Shown one piece after another: positions 49,301 through 58,401 of a stretch of 64,000 nucleotides of DNA. This stretch comes from Nitrosomonas aestuarii (GTDB lineage Bacteria > Pseudomonadota > Gammaproteobacteria > Burkholderiales > Nitrosomonadaceae), in contig NZ_QAAE01000004.1 of the NCBI RefSeq assembly GCF_003046585.1, forward strand, positions 1 through 64,000, written 5' to 3'. The position numbers and the translations under genes are program-made. Under the pieces are notes generated by a model, which was not told the origin of the DNA, made no database searches, and was given only the letters and a program-made list of their open reading frames with translations. Each line of letters begins with the position of its first letter. Position 1 is the stretch's first letter.

Positions 49301-50258
49301 TATTGTTATTGGCCGTGGAAGACGCAGAAAACCACGTTGTATAGGAGATAACATTTTTCTAGTTGATGCTAATGTGCTGTCTCGCCGTAATTTAATACAC
49401 ACAGTGGCTTTAGCTGCCGGCTTTGCTCAAGAGGAAGAACTGGCAAGCAGTAACGAATCTTACGCTACAATCACAGAAACGACCGTTTCTGAAAATAATC
49501 TATGTTTGGGTAATCCGATTCTGGTTGCAGAGGATAACGAAATTAACCAGAAGGTTATTCAACGTCAGCTAACCTTGCTTGGTATAAAGGCAGATATAGC
49601 AAATAATGGCCGTGAGGCACTCAGACTATGGATGACCAATAAATATGCATTGCTGCTGACCGATGTGCATATGCCTGACATAGATGGTTATCAACTTACC
49701 GCTGCCATACGTGCAGAAGAGACAAAAGCAAATCTAAATCGTATGCCAATTATTGCACTCACTGCGAATGTGCTAAAGGGTGAGGCTGAACACTGCAAAG
49801 CATTAGGAATGGATGATTATCTTTCGAAGCCAGTACAGTTGGCCGTTCTGAAAGAAACAATAGAAAAATGGTACAGCCTGACGGAAATCAAAGATAACGC
49901 ATATCCGGAAGTAGCGCCTATGGATGTCAATATTTTAAAAAAATTAGTTGGCAATGACGAAACAGTAATAGATGAAATGTTATCCGCATTTCGTACAAGT
50001 GCTACCAGAATCGAAAGCGAGCTACAGATTGCGTGCGAAGCTTTACTTTGTGATCGAGCCAAAAAAGCCGCACACAAATTGAAATCTTCCGCGCGCAGTG
50101 TTGGCGCCCTGAGGCTGGGTGATGTATGCGAACAGATCGAGCAAGCGGGTAAAAATGGAGAAGCTGAGATATTGGGAGATTTGTTTGCCAGGTTTGAATT
50201 AGAAATGGCTTCTGTGAATAGTTATCTGGTTAAGTCTATAAAGAGTAATGAGCAGTAG
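46368..50258 (+). CDS. Hybrid sensor histidine kinase (MASE1, PAS, HisKA, HATPase, REC, HPt)
   Basis: A 1296-aa tripartite kinase. It has an N-terminal MASE1-type membrane sensor (about residues 28-240, several helices), an extracytoplasmic loop (240-465, CHASE-like position), a further helix near residue 485, a coiled coil, and a PAS domain (540-640, IVQSINPAITHIFGYTVTEVIG). The HisKA phosphoacceptor is His665 in MSHEIRTPMNG. The ATPase has NLINNAIKFSS, DNGIGMSEE and GTGLGLAISR boxes. A degenerate receiver (910-1020) precedes a canonical one with Asp1099 in TDVHMPD. The C-terminal HPt has His1236 in AAHKLKSSA. Downstream regulators overlap or follow. The 46049-46367 leader has no other gene. 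Confidence 0.93.
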   Translation: MPQDIQGLDEYIATPATRLSNPFANPSWMKMLLVALVYFACAYFSRLVNLPDYYNLFTGLPAGLAFVTFVIWGPRLWQFIWISAFAADLLHYVNQVHDAESIAINIITAFFTASGAITQALIGAYLAKPFVKNANKILNIVETTVFLCRAGPIACLISTTINTFVLYQFHGLQDNAIIMITWMSGYTLDILGILLLAPVIFYTQSYMRIGNGWRRRIVIVTTSLFGTAALLLAGLCLFNHNEARNSRIIFEEKANEINFHARNAIRIGEDRLRNIAALSKSNNSLTSSEFVIFNQTAGLPECVITFSWIPNEAYGVTAGTFTHRLIYPEDHEADLYGKDIAEQVSGPALQRTMKTGRLTLASSVDSNKPVWWLIYPVFADISLDTKSTPDSKLLGFAAAQINMQLFFEDLVNTADHMNIALRIKGMASWHPSETLLEHRVPAQSAPDLKYSLSKHFAGEGLQIEMWSLHVPEFGWEIGSIIFLLFGLIFMILISAYSFNTLNYGFYLEHQITKRTREIELQNARTNALVENLKDVAFTVDENGIVQSINPAITHIFGYTVTEVIGSSITFLIPEMVCSLTNCWLQTKEAKSFELEKETEAQHKNGHFFPIRLTIAEYSVDGERFFSGVLHDLREQKRLMSDVEAARDKAEAASHAKSDFLAAMSHEIRTPMNGVIGMLEVLTQSSLRPDQVEIVELVRESAIALLGIINDILDFSKIEAGKLQLADEPLSIEKETEKVCALLDRMAEQKNVELLMFVDPAIPGRLQGDALRLRQILYNLINNAIKFSSKLKRQGYVSVHVKLASPEQGQTWIQCEVCDNGIGMSEEVQLRLFTAFEQGESSTTRRFGGTGLGLAISRQLANMMGGEITVQSTINEGSIFFVRLPFTHRSADKQNESMPLAELSCLTIGSEGGFISNATRYLTHAGAQVQHVESINDVNVHGTTSSGKPWVWLLDTKVNFSTDLLRTITNQYAQQNIRIIVIGRGRRRKPRCIGDNIFLVDANVLSRRNLIHTVALAAGFAQEEELASSNESYATITETTVSENNLCLGNPILVAEDNEINQKVIQRQLTLLGIKADIANNGREALRLWMTNKYALLLTDVHMPDIDGYQLTAAIRAEETKANLNRMPIIALTANVLKGEAEHCKALGMDDYLSKPVQLAVLKETIEKWYSLTEIKDNAYPEVAPMDVNILKKLVGNDETVIDEMLSAFRTSATRIESELQIACEALLCDRAKKAAHKLKSSARSVGALRLGDVCEQIEQAGKNGEAEILGDLFARFELEMASVNSYLVKSIKSNEQ

Positions 50259-50905
50259 CGCAGCGATGAGGAAAAAACTCAACGATAAAAAACGGATTGA
50301 CAATATTTGGATACTCGATGATGAGTCCGTCATGCAAAAACTGCTGACACATATGCTCACAGAACTGGGGTATTTTTGCTCTGTTAGTTTTACGAGTGCG
50401 GCTACTGCGCTAGCTACGTATCACTCACTAAATGACTGGCCAGAGATGGATGGTCTTGAGTTTATGCGTCACTTGGCCGGGCAGCATTATACTGGTGGCC
50501 TGATTCTGGTCAGCGGTGAAAAATAACTGTACGCTTCGGGTCGCCGGAGCTGCTAGCCAGGCAATATCAGCTTTCTATACCAGGGGGACTATGTAGACTT
50601 TTTGCATTAGCAGATTTTTCTGCATTGTTTGAAAAGTATTTTTCCTTGGAAACTAAAGTACCGCAAAGTAACAGTAAAGTTTATGGGGCGGAGGCTGTAC
50701 GTGATGCGATTTACAAAGGTCAACTCGTCAATTATTACCAACCAAGGGTTGCAACAAGTACGGGTAAGATAATTAGCGTGGAAGATGTCAAAGATTAGAA
50801 GTTTTTATTCGCCGCAAATTATGCTCTATTGGTACAAGGTTATTTTATTGTGCATCCTATCCTGCTGCTGATGTGTTTGATTGGATCCAAAATTAACACT
50901 CATGC
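50248..50905 (+). pseudogene. Decayed response regulator-EAL phosphodiesterase gene
   Basis: The start ATG overlaps the kinase stop by 11 nt. The first 92 codons encode a receiver (IWILDDESVMQKLLTHMLTELGY ... EMDGLEFMRHL ... LILVSGE), but about ten residues around the phosphoacceptor Asp are deleted between NDWP and EMDG. After a TAA at 50524-50526, frameshifted sequence continues the family: FALADFSALFEKYFSLETKV, then an EAL start (AEAVRDAIYKGQLVNYYQPRVATSTGKIISVE). The rest of EAL is deleted until a C-terminal scrap, QGYFIVHPI and FDWIQN-stop near 50905. It once linked this kinase to c-di-GMP turnover; it is not functional now. Confidence 0.85.
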
Positions 50906-52356: not shown

Positions 52357-53391
52357 TTATTTTATAATATCGCGTTTTGTGATACCACGCAATAATCGAC
52401 CGAGAATATCTGCTCCCGTAATAACCCGTTTTTCATCAGACCAGATGAGAATAAGATCATCATCGACGACATCATCCACCATCGAGTTCGGATTCACCTG
52501 CAAACGGGATAATATCTTTCCGAGCAAAGTGTTTGGATCCTTGACAATAATGGGACGATGACAATAAACATAAGGATTGACCGGCCCTGACCCGAACAGT
52601 GCTTCACGTAGAAAGGCATTAGCATTCAACACCATGCGGGGCTGATCATATTCATCAATAAGAATGATCCACTTTTTGCCGGAACGGTTGATTTCGAGCA
52701 GAAACGGGTCCAGGGCACGCCGTTCAAATTGCGGAAATATCAGCCTGCCATCTTTTGATGGCAGGCTGATTATGCTATCTGGATCGACATGCTCTCCTTC
52801 CTGCGTGACTGAAATGTCATCCAACGCTAAAAAATTCAGGGCGCCGATACCTTCCAGACGTTCCACATCCGATTCTTCAGCCTCAATATGCTTGCGAATC
52901 AGGGTTCGCAAATCGCGTTCCCTGAAATACGGGATACTCTCCTTTCCTAACCACCAATCCAACATCATCGCTGAAGGTTTTGCAACCGGAAAAAGAATAA
53001 CCTGATAAATGCGTATCAATGGAGCAAGCAATGCCCCCATACGCATAGCATGACGGGAAAAATAAGCCTGTGGAAATATTTCACCAGCAAATGTAATCAG
53101 TATTGTTGAGAAGAAAAAAGCAGCCACCCCAGCCATGACAGAATTGGATAACAGCGTTAGCAGAACATTAATCCCAACATTACCCCATAAAATGGTAGCA
53201 AGCAGGAAATTGAAATCTTTACGCAAGATCAAAATCTTTGCCGCATCTGTATTCCCGGCGGAAACATCTACTTCCAGATGCAGCCGGCTGATACCCAGCA
53301 ATGCCAAGTTTAAACCTGAGAACATAGCGGACTGACTGATACAAAACACGATGCCAATCCAGATCAAGGTGTCAATCGGCAAAACGCTCAT
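52357..53391 (-). CDS. CNNM/CorC-like (DUF21 plus CBS) membrane protein
   Basis: A 344-aa protein with an N-terminal DUF21 transmembrane region of about four helices (WIGIVFCISQSAMFSGLNLALLGISRLHLEV; GNVGINVLLTLLSNSV; FAGEIFPQAYF) and a C-terminal pair of CBS domains (about residues 190-330). CNNM proteins are linked to magnesium/cation transport; some members were called hemolysins. The C-terminal CorC/HlyC transporter-associated domain is absent. Contains a perfect 14-bp intragenic hairpin (52739-52770). Transcribed alone, convergent with the response regulator. Confidence 0.85.
   Translation of the reverse strand: MSVLPIDTLIWIGIVFCISQSAMFSGLNLALLGISRLHLEVDVSAGNTDAAKILILRKDFNFLLATILWGNVGINVLLTLLSNSVMAGVAAFFFSTILITFAGEIFPQAYFSRHAMRMGALLAPLIRIYQVILFPVAKPSAMMLDWWLGKESIPYFRERDLRTLIRKHIEAEESDVERLEGIGALNFLALDDISVTQEGEHVDPDSIISLPSKDGRLIFPQFERRALDPFLLEINRSGKKWIILIDEYDQPRMVLNANAFLREALFGSGPVNPYVYCHRPIIVKDPNTLLGKILSRLQVNPNSMVDDVVDDDLILIWSDEKRVITGADILGRLLRGITKRDIIK
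52739..52770. repeat. Perfect 14-bp inverted repeat inside the CNNM gene
   Basis: ATCAGCCTGCCATC and GATGGCAGGCTGAT flank TTTT with no mismatch. In the minus-strand mRNA it folds as a very stable stem-loop around the codons for SLPSKDGRLI. Perfect inverted repeats of this length are rare in coding DNA. Confidence 0.85.
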
Positions 53392-53780
53392 ATTTTAAAT
53401 GATAGTAGGATTGCGGTTTTATAATCATAACCAATATTCACATAATATACCGGGTACCAGGACATTTCTCTGAATAAATAAAGCGGTTACCAAAGAATGG
53501 TTTCAAAACGATCGTTGTTTCAATGAAAAAATAACTGCTACACTAGTACTCCAACAACTTAGAGATGACAGGTACAGCGTTCACAGGATGTTTCGTCCCA
53601 AAGCGCAGCGCGATGACAGCGCATCCTGTGATCGCCCGGCGGGTTAGCTTTTCAGCGTTACTGGCGGGGCAAGTTTCGCCGACAAGGGGCATAATCAATA
53701 TGCATTCTGGACCTGTTTTTAACGCCACAATATCAACACAGATAGTTTTTCAACAGACTGTCAGGGATTAAATAAAGCGT
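53392..53780. other. Intergenic region with palindrome and repeat copy, no supported gene
   Basis: A 389-bp gap. At 53580-53630 the arms TCACAGGATG and CATCCTGTGA frame a 31-nt loop. A 61-codon open frame on the minus strand (53543-53728) spans it without a ribosome site or known family. A copy of the dispersed repeat ends 15 bp before the next gene (core at 53734). Confidence 0.45.
53713..53766 (+). repeat. Dispersed ~50-bp repeat, copy B
   Basis: Contains CAACACAGATAGTTTTTCAA followed by CAGACTGTCAGG. Related copies lie at 29575-29625 (A), 56704-56755 (C) and 63268-63316 (D), all in intergenic DNA and in the same orientation. B and C share the core CAACRCAGATAGTTTTTCAA; B and D match at about 33 of 51 aligned positions without gaps. 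Confidence 0.6.
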
Positions 53781-54455
53781 ATGGGTCAACATTATCTGGA
53801 TTATTTATTCGCACCTAACGCCATTGCCGTATTCGGCGCCAGCATGAAATCCGCATCAGTAGGAACCCGTTTATTTCAGAATATTATCGCAAGTGGTTTC
53901 GCAGGTCCTGTTTACCCCATCAACCCTAAGTACAACAACCTGGATCAACAGACATGTTACCCCTCCATACGCGCGATTGACAAATCTGTTGACCTCGCTG
54001 TAATCGCTACGCCAGTGGCAACTATACCGGAAATCATCCATGAATGCGGTGAACAGGGCGTGTGCACTGCCATCATCCTCTCCGCCGGTTTCGAGGACGC
54101 ACAAGGCGAAGCCGGTATCTATCAGAAGTCTGTACTGGCAGAAGCACGCCGCAAAGGTATCCGCATCCTTGGACCGAATTGTCTCGGCTTAATTCGTCCT
54201 GTCAATAAGTTAAACGCCACCTTCAGCAAAAACAATGCGCACTCCGGCAATCTCGCTCTGGTATCACAATCGGGCGCGTTATGCACTGCGATCCTCGACT
54301 GGGCCATGGCGCGCAGCATAGGATTCTCCGCCGTGGTGTCACTGGGTAATGCGCTTGATATCGGTTTCGGCGAGGTGCTGGATTATCTCGCACTTGATCC
54401 CCATACCGAAAGTATCCTGTTATACGTTGAAGGTATTCGTGATGCGCGCGCATGA
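53781..54455 (+). pseudogene. N-terminal fragment of an acyl-CoA synthetase (NDP-forming)/GNAT protein
   Basis: A 224-aa CoA-binding domain (YLFAPNAIAVFGASMKSASVG; PVYPINPKYN; RGIRILGPNCLGLI; LVSQSGALCTAILDWA) that in relatives is continuous with the next ORF in one protein of about 900 aa. It stops at TGA after EGIRDARA, exactly where relatives continue with a helix (RxFxxAxRxxAR) leading to the KPVIVLK strand. The end overlaps the next ORF by ATGA. Loss of about a dozen codons with a frame change at a GCGCGC string best explains this. It may still be made as a separate subunit, as in archaeal alpha/beta ADP-forming acetyl-CoA synthetases. Confidence 0.75.
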
Positions 54456-56428
54456 AACCGGTTATTGTGTTGAAGGTTGGCCGTCACCATGAAAGTGCAC
54501 ATGCCGCACTCTCTCATACCGGCGCCATGGTAGGCGCCGACGATGTATTTGATGCAGCTCTGCGGCGCGCCGGTGCGGTGCGTGTTATGACTATCGAACA
54601 ATTATTTTCAGCCGCCCAGTTACTCGCCACTACGCATCGTGCGCAGGGCAACCGTCTCGCCATCGTCACCAATGGAGGTGGTCCGGGTATTATGGCCACT
54701 GACCGGGCAATTGACTTGGGCGTGGCAATAACGCAGCTTACTGAAACAAGCATACAACAACTAAACGCTGCTTTGCCGCCACATTGGTCGCACGGCAATC
54801 CGATAGATATTCTCGGTGACGCCACCCCCGCGCGTTATCGCAGCGCAGTCGAAATCTGCTTGCACGACACTCATATTGACGGAGTATTGATAATCCTTAC
54901 GCCACAGGCAATGACAAAACCGCTACAAGCTGCAAAAGCGGTGATTGAAGCGTCTACGGGTACAAACAAGCCAGTGCTGGCCTGCTGGATGGGTGAACCA
55001 CAGGTAAAAGCTGCGCGAAAGCTGTTTGCAAAGCATAAGATACCCTTTTTTCCAAATCCCGATGTTGCCGTTGAAGCCTTTACCTATCTTGTCAGCTACC
55101 ACCGTAACCAGAGATTATTGATGCAGGTCCCGGAGCCCTTGATGCGTAGCAGCGGGTCTGATATCAACGGTGCACACATGATCATCGATGGTGCTCTTGC
55201 AGAACGGCGCACCACGCTTAACAGTCTTGAGGCAAGAGCATTGCTGACCGCATTTGGGATAACCGTGATGCCTGCAATTTCAGCACGATCGGGCAATGAG
55301 GCGTTGGTTGCAGCAGAATCCCTTGGATTCCCCATTGCAATGAAAATCAATTCACCGGATATCAGTCATAAGTCCGATGTCAATGGCGTGCAATTAAATA
55401 TCGCTAACGCACACGCAGTACGCGGTACTTATAACGAATTGACCGCCACCGTCCAGGCACTATGTCCCAACGCTAAAATAGAGGGTGTCACGATAGAACG
55501 TATGCACCATCATCCTCATGGAAGAGAGCTCCTGGTCGGCGTGATTCGTGACCCTGTATTTGGCCCGATTATCAGCTTTGGTGCAGGGGGCACTATGGTT
55601 GAGTTATTACTGGATCATGCCGTAGCCATTCCACTGCTCAATGATTTTATCATCACAGACCTGATTAACCAGACCCGCATCTCGAAACTGCTGGGGCAAT
55701 TTCGTAATTTTCCTGCCGTGAGTATTCCCGCCATACGAAATGTGATGCGGCGCTTATCAGAAATGGTGTGCGAATTACCACGCATTTGTGAGCTCGATAT
55801 CAATCCGCTTATTGCTGATGAAAATGATGCGGTGGTATTGGATGTCCGTGTAGTCGTTGATGCACAGGCACCGATGCTGAAACCCTACGGACACATGGCC
55901 ATCCACCCATACCCTGCTCACCTGCAGAGACAGTGGCAACTTGCCGATGGCACTGACATTATCATCCGACCGATACGACCAGAAGATGCTGAAATAGAAC
56001 AAACCTTTGTGCATAATCTTTCACTACAATCGAAATATTTCCGTTTCATGCAATCGCTCTATGAACTCACGCCGCAAATGCTGATCCGGTTCACTCAGAT
56101 TGATTATGATCGCGAACTGGCATTGATCGCCGTCATCAGTGCAAAGCATCGAGAGACTGAAATCGGTGTAGCGCGCTACGTAACAAACCCCGATATCGAA
56201 AGTTGCGAATTTGCTCTGGTAATTGCCGATCAATGGCAACAAAAAGGTATCGGATCACGACTCCTGACCTGTTTGATAGAAGCTGCGAAAGCTAAAGGAT
56301 TCAAAACAATGGAAGGTGAAGTACTGGCGAACAATACCGCTATGCTCCGATTGACCAAGAATCTTGGATTTACGTCGCACATTAGTCAAGACGATCCTGC
56401 TATCATTGCGATCTCCAAAGCGCTTTAG
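54452..56428 (+). CDS. Acyl-CoA synthetase (NDP-forming) C-terminal part with GNAT acetyltransferase domain
   Basis: A 658-aa ORF: succinyl-CoA-ligase-like domain with the SHTGAMVG motif (KPVIVLKVGRHHESAHAALSHTG at residues 2-24), ATP-grasp domain (SLGFPIAMKINSPDISHKSD; FGPIISFGAGGTMVELL; CELDINPLIADENDAVVLDVRV; about residues 230-480), and a C-terminal GNAT domain (DIIIRPIRPEDAE ... ADQWQQKGIGSRLLTCLIEAA). Family: Pat/PatZ-like protein lysine acetyltransferases and ACD enzymes. The SHTG histidine is retained. Its start overlaps the upstream fragment stop, so translation by reinitiation is possible, making the pair a natural split version. Confidence 0.85.
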   Translation: MKPVIVLKVGRHHESAHAALSHTGAMVGADDVFDAALRRAGAVRVMTIEQLFSAAQLLATTHRAQGNRLAIVTNGGGPGIMATDRAIDLGVAITQLTETSIQQLNAALPPHWSHGNPIDILGDATPARYRSAVEICLHDTHIDGVLIILTPQAMTKPLQAAKAVIEASTGTNKPVLACWMGEPQVKAARKLFAKHKIPFFPNPDVAVEAFTYLVSYHRNQRLLMQVPEPLMRSSGSDINGAHMIIDGALAERRTTLNSLEARALLTAFGITVMPAISARSGNEALVAAESLGFPIAMKINSPDISHKSDVNGVQLNIANAHAVRGTYNELTATVQALCPNAKIEGVTIERMHHHPHGRELLVGVIRDPVFGPIISFGAGGTMVELLLDHAVAIPLLNDFIITDLINQTRISKLLGQFRNFPAVSIPAIRNVMRRLSEMVCELPRICELDINPLIADENDAVVLDVRVVVDAQAPMLKPYGHMAIHPYPAHLQRQWQLADGTDIIIRPIRPEDAEIEQTFVHNLSLQSKYFRFMQSLYELTPQMLIRFTQIDYDRELALIAVISAKHRETEIGVARYVTNPDIESCEFALVIADQWQQKGIGSRLLTCLIEAAKAKGFKTMEGEVLANNTAMLRLTKNLGFTSHISQDDPAIIAISKAL

Positions 56429-56757: not shown

Positions 56758-58401
56758 TCAATCGAACGATTGACTCAACGTTCTGATTTCCTTGTTCAGA
56801 ATCCTGTCGTTATCAGCATAATCCACAGCGACTTCAATAACATGCACACCAGGTTCGATAAAGCAGTTTTTCATGAGTGGCTCCAATTCATCACTGGCTG
56901 CAATCCGGTGACCATACGCCCCGTAACTTTGCGCATATTTGACAAAATCAGGATTACCGTAATCGAGCCCAAAGTCTGCAAATCCCATTTGAGTCTGTTT
57001 CCATTTGATCATGCCATAAGCATTGTCGCGTAAAATAATAATTATGACATTTAAGCTGAGGCGTATCGCCGTTTCAAGTTCTTGCGAGTTCATCATGAAA
57101 CCACCATCACCGCAGATCGCAACGATTTTTTTTTCAGGATAAATAAGACTGGCTGCCATTGCGGAAGGCAATCCTGCGCCCATAGTTGCAAGTGCGTTAT
57201 CCAGCAAAATCGTGTTGGGTTGATGCGCTTTATAGTTACGCGCAAACCAGATTTTATAAATCCCGTTATCAAGCGCGATGATGCCATCATCCGGCATGAC
57301 TTTTCTCATGTCGGCAACCAGTCGCTGCGGATACATTGGGAAATGTGAATCATCAGCCCTTTCCTGCAGATGTGTCTCAAGTTTCTTCTTTACAGCTAAT
57401 AAATAAGAGAAATTCCAGCTTCTTTGTGGCTTTATTGTCTCAGATAAACGCTCGATACTATCGGCAACATCACCAATCACGCTCAGTTGGGGATAATAAA
57501 CCGGATCAATTGGCGCAGTAACATAATTAACATGAATCACTTTGCAGTGATTCTTTTTCATAAAAAAAGGCGGTTTCTCTACAACATCATGCCCCACATT
57601 AATAATCAAGTCAGCATGATCTATGGCGCGGTGCAGAAAATCATTATCAGATAATGCCGCTGTACCCAGGAACAGCGGGTTCCGTTCGTCAACCACCCCT
57701 TTTCCCATTTGTGTGGAAAAAAACGGAATGCCCGTTTTCTCAACAAATGATTGCAGCCAGCCGCAGGTTTGTTTTCTATTGGCACCAGCACCAAGCAGCA
57801 ATACCGGACACGCAGCATCCTCGATCATGCTTGCGGCCGCCTCAATTGACCGGTTATCCGCAATCGCGCGATGAAATAAACTTTTTTGAATAACGGGCAT
57901 ATCGCTTATGTCGCTGGCGATATCTTCCGGAAGTTCAAGGTGTGCCGCCCCCGGACGTTCATCTTCGGCAACACGAAAAGCTTCTCTGACATGCGCCGGG
58001 ATACTGTCAGCTCCGCGGATCTGTCGTGTGTATTTTGTTAACGGGTGCATCATGTCAACGACATCTACAATCTGAAAACGACCCTGTTTGCTGCTTTTTA
58101 TGGGTTTTTGCCCGGTAATCATCACCATAGGCATTGCACCAAGCTGTGCATAAGCGGCAGCAGTAACGAGATTGGTTGCACCCGGCCCCAGGGTTGCTAA
58201 CACCACACCGGCCCTGCCGGTTAAACGCCCATAAGTTGCAGCCATGAAACCCGCCGCCTGTTCATGCCGGGTAAGAATCAGTTTTATCGAAGACGTCCTT
58301 AATGAATTCAAGAAATCAATATTTTCTTCGCCCGGAAGGCCAAAAACATACTCCACGCCTTCGGTTTCCAGCGCTTTTACAAAAATATCAGTCGCTTTCA
58401 T
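56758..58401 (-). CDS. Acetolactate synthase-like thiamine diphosphate enzyme
   Basis: A 547-aa TPP enzyme. The N-terminal domain has GLPGEEN and the catalytic Glu47 in RHEQAAGFMAATYGRLTGRAGV; the central domain is HDVVEKPPFF; the C-terminal TPP motif is GDGGFMMNSQELETAIRLSLNVIIIILRDNAYG. It resembles the single-subunit catabolic acetolactate synthase (AlsS-like) group rather than IlvB, which needs IlvN; no regulatory subunit is nearby. Reaction (2 pyruvate to acetolactate and CO2) is therefore likely but other substrates are possible. Follows a glutamate synthase-like gene by 26 bp. Confidence 0.85.
   Translation of the reverse strand: MKATDIFVKALETEGVEYVFGLPGEENIDFLNSLRTSSIKLILTRHEQAAGFMAATYGRLTGRAGVVLATLGPGATNLVTAAAYAQLGAMPMVMITGQKPIKSSKQGRFQIVDVVDMMHPLTKYTRQIRGADSIPAHVREAFRVAEDERPGAAHLELPEDIASDISDMPVIQKSLFHRAIADNRSIEAAASMIEDAACPVLLLGAGANRKQTCGWLQSFVEKTGIPFFSTQMGKGVVDERNPLFLGTAALSDNDFLHRAIDHADLIINVGHDVVEKPPFFMKKNHCKVIHVNYVTAPIDPVYYPQLSVIGDVADSIERLSETIKPQRSWNFSYLLAVKKKLETHLQERADDSHFPMYPQRLVADMRKVMPDDGIIALDNGIYKIWFARNYKAHQPNTILLDNALATMGAGLPSAMAASLIYPEKKIVAICGDGGFMMNSQELETAIRLSLNVIIIILRDNAYGMIKWKQTQMGFADFGLDYGNPDFVKYAQSYGAYGHRIAASDELEPLMKNCFIEPGVHVIEVAVDYADNDRILNKEIRTLSQSFD

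Follow-up and report, generated by a model that had tools for sequence, protein, structure and literature searches.

It is probable that a 31-nt deletion at a short GC repeat has recently inactivated a type I Pat (PatZ-like) acyltransferase gene in this strain of Nitrosomonas aestuarii. The gene lies in the window, the 64,000-nt stretch of DNA analysed here, and is split into two open reading frames, ORF1 (53781-54455) and ORF2 (54452-56428), which overlap in ATGA as the initial annotation described. Judged by their domains, ORF1 and ORF2 are two pieces of one Pat/PatZ-like gene, in which an NDP-forming acyl-CoA synthetase is joined to a GNAT acetyltransferase. The features of the region are as follows.

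52357-53391: flanking gene
53781-54455, + strand: ORF1, 224 aa, CoA-binding domain and first half of the Succ_CoA_lig (flavodoxin-like) domain
53820-54194, + strand: CoA_binding_2 (PF13380), Pfam
54246-54449, + strand: Succ_CoA_lig (PF13607), columns 2-69, upstream half, Pfam
54444-54451, + strand: GC run, endpoint of the 31-nt deletion (junction)
54452-54455, + strand: ATGA, ORF2 Met codon overlapping the ORF1 TGA stop
54452-56428, + strand: ORF2, 658 aa, second half of Succ_CoA_lig, Ligase-CoA, ATP-grasp and GNAT
54455-54625, + strand: Succ_CoA_lig (PF13607), columns 82-138, downstream half, Pfam
54515-54517, + strand: conserved His codon in the downstream Succ_CoA_lig half (ORF2 residue 22)
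54659-55057, + strand: Ligase_CoA_2 (PF19045), Pfam
55193-55858, + strand: ATP-grasp_5 (PF13549), Pfam
55367-55369, + strand: conserved His codon in ATP-grasp_5
55958-56374, + strand: GNAT acetyltransferase (PF13302; overlapped by PF00583), Pfam
56758-58401: flanking gene

The Pat domains stand in the expected order, but they are spread over two ORFs, while intact relatives are one chain; the gene is therefore filed as a broken derivative and not as a working type I Pat. ORF1 matches positions 1-218 of the 447 in NCBIfam model TIGR02717 and ORF2 matches 231-446. The CoA-binding domain initially assigned to ORF1 is present, together with the first half of the next domain, which that assignment did not include. 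Likewise, ORF2 holds the remaining synthetase part and GNAT as proposed, with the cut inside Succ_CoA_lig and not between domains.

Escherichia coli PatZ, a type I GNAT protein acetyltransferase (9ISQ and 9IT0), has the same arrangement as the window gene, a synthetase part followed by GNAT, but PatZ is one chain and the window gene is in two pieces. For L032, an intact relative, the AlphaFold model comes closest in structure to entry 9IT0 (TM 0.83/0.84, 34% identity), and PatZ is the best solved sequence match of ORF2 (2-648). The match of PatZ with ORF1 covers 1-223 in 9IT0 and 6-223 in 9ISQ; the best solved relative of ORF1 is the ADP-forming acetyl-CoA synthetase (ACD) chain 4XYL_A, with PatZ next but one. 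Homology to a characterised Pat (9IT0) extends over the whole length apart from the lost 11-12 residues. In the alignment, E. coli PatZ is without the HTGAM loop and its His, whereas the window clade retains the His in 30 of 30 aligned relatives (from 35 loci, with L048, L060, L064, L065 and L066 left out). Since this swinging-loop His is kept in the clade, catalysis by the synthetase part may persist in intact relatives. The 4-hydroxybutyryl-CoA synthetase of Nitrosopumilus maritimus (8WZU) is an intact single chain and has no GNAT. According to PMC11494057 it has the single-chain order 1-2-5-4-3, like the synthetase part of intact relatives, and its swinging-loop His256 falls on His22 of ORF2, a position placed only by the offset from the match start.

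The frame is broken by a short deletion at the GC string, as was initially read from the sequence. Between the conserved Arg223 and the position of the ORF2 Met lie 33 nt, without a change of frame, in 7 of 7 aligned close relatives; the window has 2 nt, so 31 nt are missing and the frame is shifted. Relative to intact relatives this is a frame-disrupting lesion, as looked for in a pseudogene. Distant synthetase-only loci without a matched GNAT (L028, L030 and L031) are 3 nt longer at the junction region. In L033 and L035, GCGCGC flanks the lost stretch on either side, so that slipped pairing, or joining by microhomology, between GCGCGC-like repeats is the mechanism suggested. L032 and L065 each miss one exact copy of GCGCGC, so we infer the ancestral junction sequence, and the lesion may have arisen in two steps. 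No second stop or frameshift is present across the 2.6 kb of the window gene. Among the compared loci, which may omit records very near the window, the closest relative found is L032, with 78-79% DNA identity in both parts; L065 shows 77% DNA identity over the ORF1 part and 83.5% over 267 nt of ORF2.

The deletion also removes the core of a helix, in agreement with the initial reading. In the AlphaFold model of intact L032 (mean pLDDT 87.6), the lost stretch is residues 224-234, within helix 222-235. This helix, which has a strand on either side in the flavodoxin-like CoA-ligase domain, loses 11 of its 14 residues. Phe225, Arg230, Ala233 and Arg234 are invariant in all 30 aligned relatives, and all four are lost in the window. 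Ser227, Leu229 and Ala232 are conserved in 28 or 29 of the 30. The CoA-binding fragment that ORF1 would yield after this cut would be truncated and unstable. If ORF2 is translated at all, by reinitiation at the ATGA, its product would lack both the CoA-binding module and one half of the domain that follows it.

The same split is found in no other homologue among the order-wide matches listed or the rows of the genus search. The gene is patchily kept in the genus, with matches in 12 of 37 genomes at E 1e-60 (own genome counted), and in the other 11 it is a single uninterrupted frame of 893-914 aa. Of the other rows in this search, 25 reach GNAT, and every one of these has one open frame of at least 893 aa; the four remaining rows match the synthetase part only, and two of the four hold one stop. 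Across the order, 202 of 399 genomes have a match at E 1e-130; the matches listed fill 150 rows, one being the window's. Relatives had been described as a single protein of about 900 aa, which agrees with this list: 148 of the 149 other homologues in it are in one frame of at least 894 aa. A shared split in the remaining row, genome G161 (666 aa), was considered and rejected, as its 3117-base contig has just 26 bases upstream of the match. We found no split Pat in the literature as far as titles and abstract openings tell.

In L065, a related Nitrosomonas MAG, the gene halts at residue 89-92, where it runs into a multi-copy repeat at the contig end. Counting its own place, this repeat (L065:6268-6414) gave 40 matches in that genome, where 40 of 374 candidates were scored, and the rest of the gene is not found there at E 1e-5. 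The gene of L065 may have been lost independently, or the assembly may be broken at this point.

The window's own assembly has 58 contigs and 3.44 Mb and is rated 100% complete and 0.07% contaminated. A second intact copy was searched for in it and not found; the gene has one match only in its own genome. The flanking genes 52357-53391 and 56758-58401, which by the look of their sequences we take to encode a CNNM-like protein and an acetolactate-synthase-like enzyme, are found in 1 and 5 of 37 other genomes at the thresholds used. Both are rare, so the region looks accessory. The flanking sequence retrieved for the other loci, short in many cases, contains neither of them at E 1e-20. About 3 kb upstream, at 50248-50795, a receiver piece (24.9 bits, cut-off 30.2) and an EAL piece (16.6 bits, cut-off 31.3) do not share a frame. 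They likely represent a decayed REC-EAL gene, with both scores below the Pfam cut-off.

Selection on the window branch was estimated with a custom-written Goldman-Yang two-ratio codon model for six taxa (the window and L032-L036). With this custom model and the long branch of the outgroup L036 (about 2.7 substitutions per codon), the figures are rough. Omega is 0.121 on the window branch and 0.091 elsewhere (2dL 2.08), and omega = 1 on the window branch is rejected (2dL 48.9). For ORF1, the values are 0.130 on the window branch against 0.071 elsewhere (2dL 3.06), and for ORF2 0.110 against 0.098 (2dL 0.22). Relaxed selection in both halves had been named earlier as a refuting result; neither half shows significant relaxation. 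The intact L032 branch, taken as a control, gives 0.138 against 0.090 (2dL 3.07). Of the neutral fractions tried for the window branch, 3% is best; 0% costs 2dL 1.41 and is not rejected, and 7.5% costs 2.7. The best fraction for the L032 control branch is 5%, a similar profile, so there is no signal specific to the window gene. The loss, if real, is recent and occupies at most about 7.5% of the branch, which is an upper limit only. The selection result fits recent loss, artefact or retained function alike.

A fresh pseudogene, one of the two readings offered by the initial annotation, agrees with a split that is unique among the relatives seen, with a break inside a domain, with the loss of invariant residues and with the absence of a second lesion. 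For inactivation we also count the patchy presence of the gene, the halted gene of L065 and the likely decayed REC-EAL gene nearby. Against it stand the absence of significant relaxation and of a second lesion, and the halt in L065 may be an assembly break. Absence of relaxation and of further lesions is expected for a very recent loss and equally for no loss.

No loss at all would be the case if the 31-nt gap came from assembly, sequencing or one culture and the gene were intact in the natural organism. We consider this rather improbable, and rank it second after a recent inactivating microdeletion. The gap does lie at a GC-rich repeat in a 58-contig draft, purifying selection is not measurably lowered over the branch, and the gene has no other stop or frameshift. 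However, a gap of 31 nt is atypical of base-call error, the assembly holds no alternative copy, and the completeness and contamination of the genome are rated well (100% and 0.07%).

It is unlikely, and clearly more so than an artefact, that ORF2 is still produced by itself and works as an acyltransferase without regulation, having lost CoA sensing through the first domain. The ligase, ATP-grasp and GNAT domains are retained in ORF2 without a stop, and ORF2 is under purifying selection. Yet the half-domain at the new N-terminus would be expected to be unstable, and in E. coli PatZ, according to a review (PMC8556138), the isolated GNAT domain is inactive and the N-terminal domain is essential.

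About as unlikely, finally, is a working enzyme of two polypeptides, in which ORF1 and ORF2 are made by stop-start coupling and reassembled as in archaeal ACD or succinyl-CoA synthetase. This was the other reading initially offered, a new two-subunit enzyme like archaeal ACD, and it is not supported by the position of the cut or by the listed homologues. The ATGA overlap, purifying selection on both halves along the window branch, and the retention of both the swinging-loop His and the ATP-grasp His speak for it. The catalytic swinging-loop His is ORF2 residue 22, and a His stands there in 30 of 30 aligned relatives. The split, however, is neither at a domain border nor conserved in relatives: domain 2 is cut internally with the invariant core of a helix lost, and none of the listed homologues shares the cut. 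Archaeal ACD is divided between whole domains into alpha and beta, labelled 1-2-5 and 3-4, and the window gene inside domain 2 with a helix missing. In 4XYL, the ACD of Ca. Korarchaeum, chain A aligns with ORF1 over 6-223 and with ORF2 over 2-224, while the counterpart of chain B is the ATP-grasp part at ORF2 252-469. The 4XYL chains therefore part at whole-domain borders, between ORF2 224 and 252, whereas the window gene is cut at PF13607 69/82 and TIGR02717 218/231 of 447. Unlike ACD, the window gene also has a GNAT domain.

The ATGA overlap itself looks like a by-product of the deletion that needs no selection. ATGAA stands at the position of the ORF2 start in 6 of 7 aligned close relatives, which counts against evolved coupling; L034 has Ile. 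In the wider alignment Met is found at this position in 16 of 30 and the adjacent Lys in 30 of 30. Wherever a Met codon is followed by a Lys codon (ATGAAA or ATGAAG), a TGA can be read in the next frame. Read in that frame, the relatives contain another TGA 26 nt upstream, also within ATGA and inside the stretch lost in the window. The deletion removes this upstream stretch and shifts ORF1, so the Met-Lys pair becomes the default end of the frame. As evidence for evolved coupling the overlap therefore counts little, although reinitiation at the ATGA is possible. By eye, no Shine-Dalgarno sequence is seen 5' of ORF2 at a usable distance, a further point against coupled translation; the nearest GAAGG ends 18 nt 5' of the ATG. 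Programmed frameshifting between the ORFs was rejected, as no slippery heptamer is seen by eye at the junction. A promoter of its own for ORF2 was likewise rejected: the consensus scan gives no + strand promoter-like site in 53446-54452, and says little, since its 8 sites compare with an expected 4.7 (sd 2.1). A one-step working split Pat, in which the ATGA-coupled polypeptides would rebuild the Rossmann-like domain minus one helix, is the least credible reading; if true, it would be a two-part protein acetyltransferase with a detachable sensing module.

Before the break, the gene may have had a place in reversible acetylation. A gene of the histone-deacetylase family (PF00850) lies beside the intact gene, within the flanking sequence retrieved (about 6 kb at most), at 20 of the 35 loci L032-L066; among the 31 loci L001-L031, which have short flanks, it does so at 4. 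In these counts over L001-L066 a few loci repeat one record. Near the intact gene of L032 it is found at L032:8278-9225. The intact gene and the PF00850 gene could form a writer-eraser neighbourhood. Against a tight link, only L032 among five Nitrosomonas loci (L032-L035 and L065) has the PF00850 gene in its flanks. The window's genome holds an intact PF00850 gene on another contig (C10:101651-102502) and one acetyl-CoA synthetase above the curated cut-off. According to the review (PMC8556138), Bacillus AcuA/AcuC is a reversible acetylation switch, and the PF00850 and acetyl-CoA synthetase genes of the window's genome would fit a switch of this kind.

Automatic annotation would probably enter two genes at this place, and a stop-start overlap that resembles an evolved operon can result from one deletion. 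With the gene inactivated by a recent microdeletion, the preferred reading, the strain would have lost one arm of protein acetylation while its deacetylase-family and acetyl-CoA synthetase genes remain.
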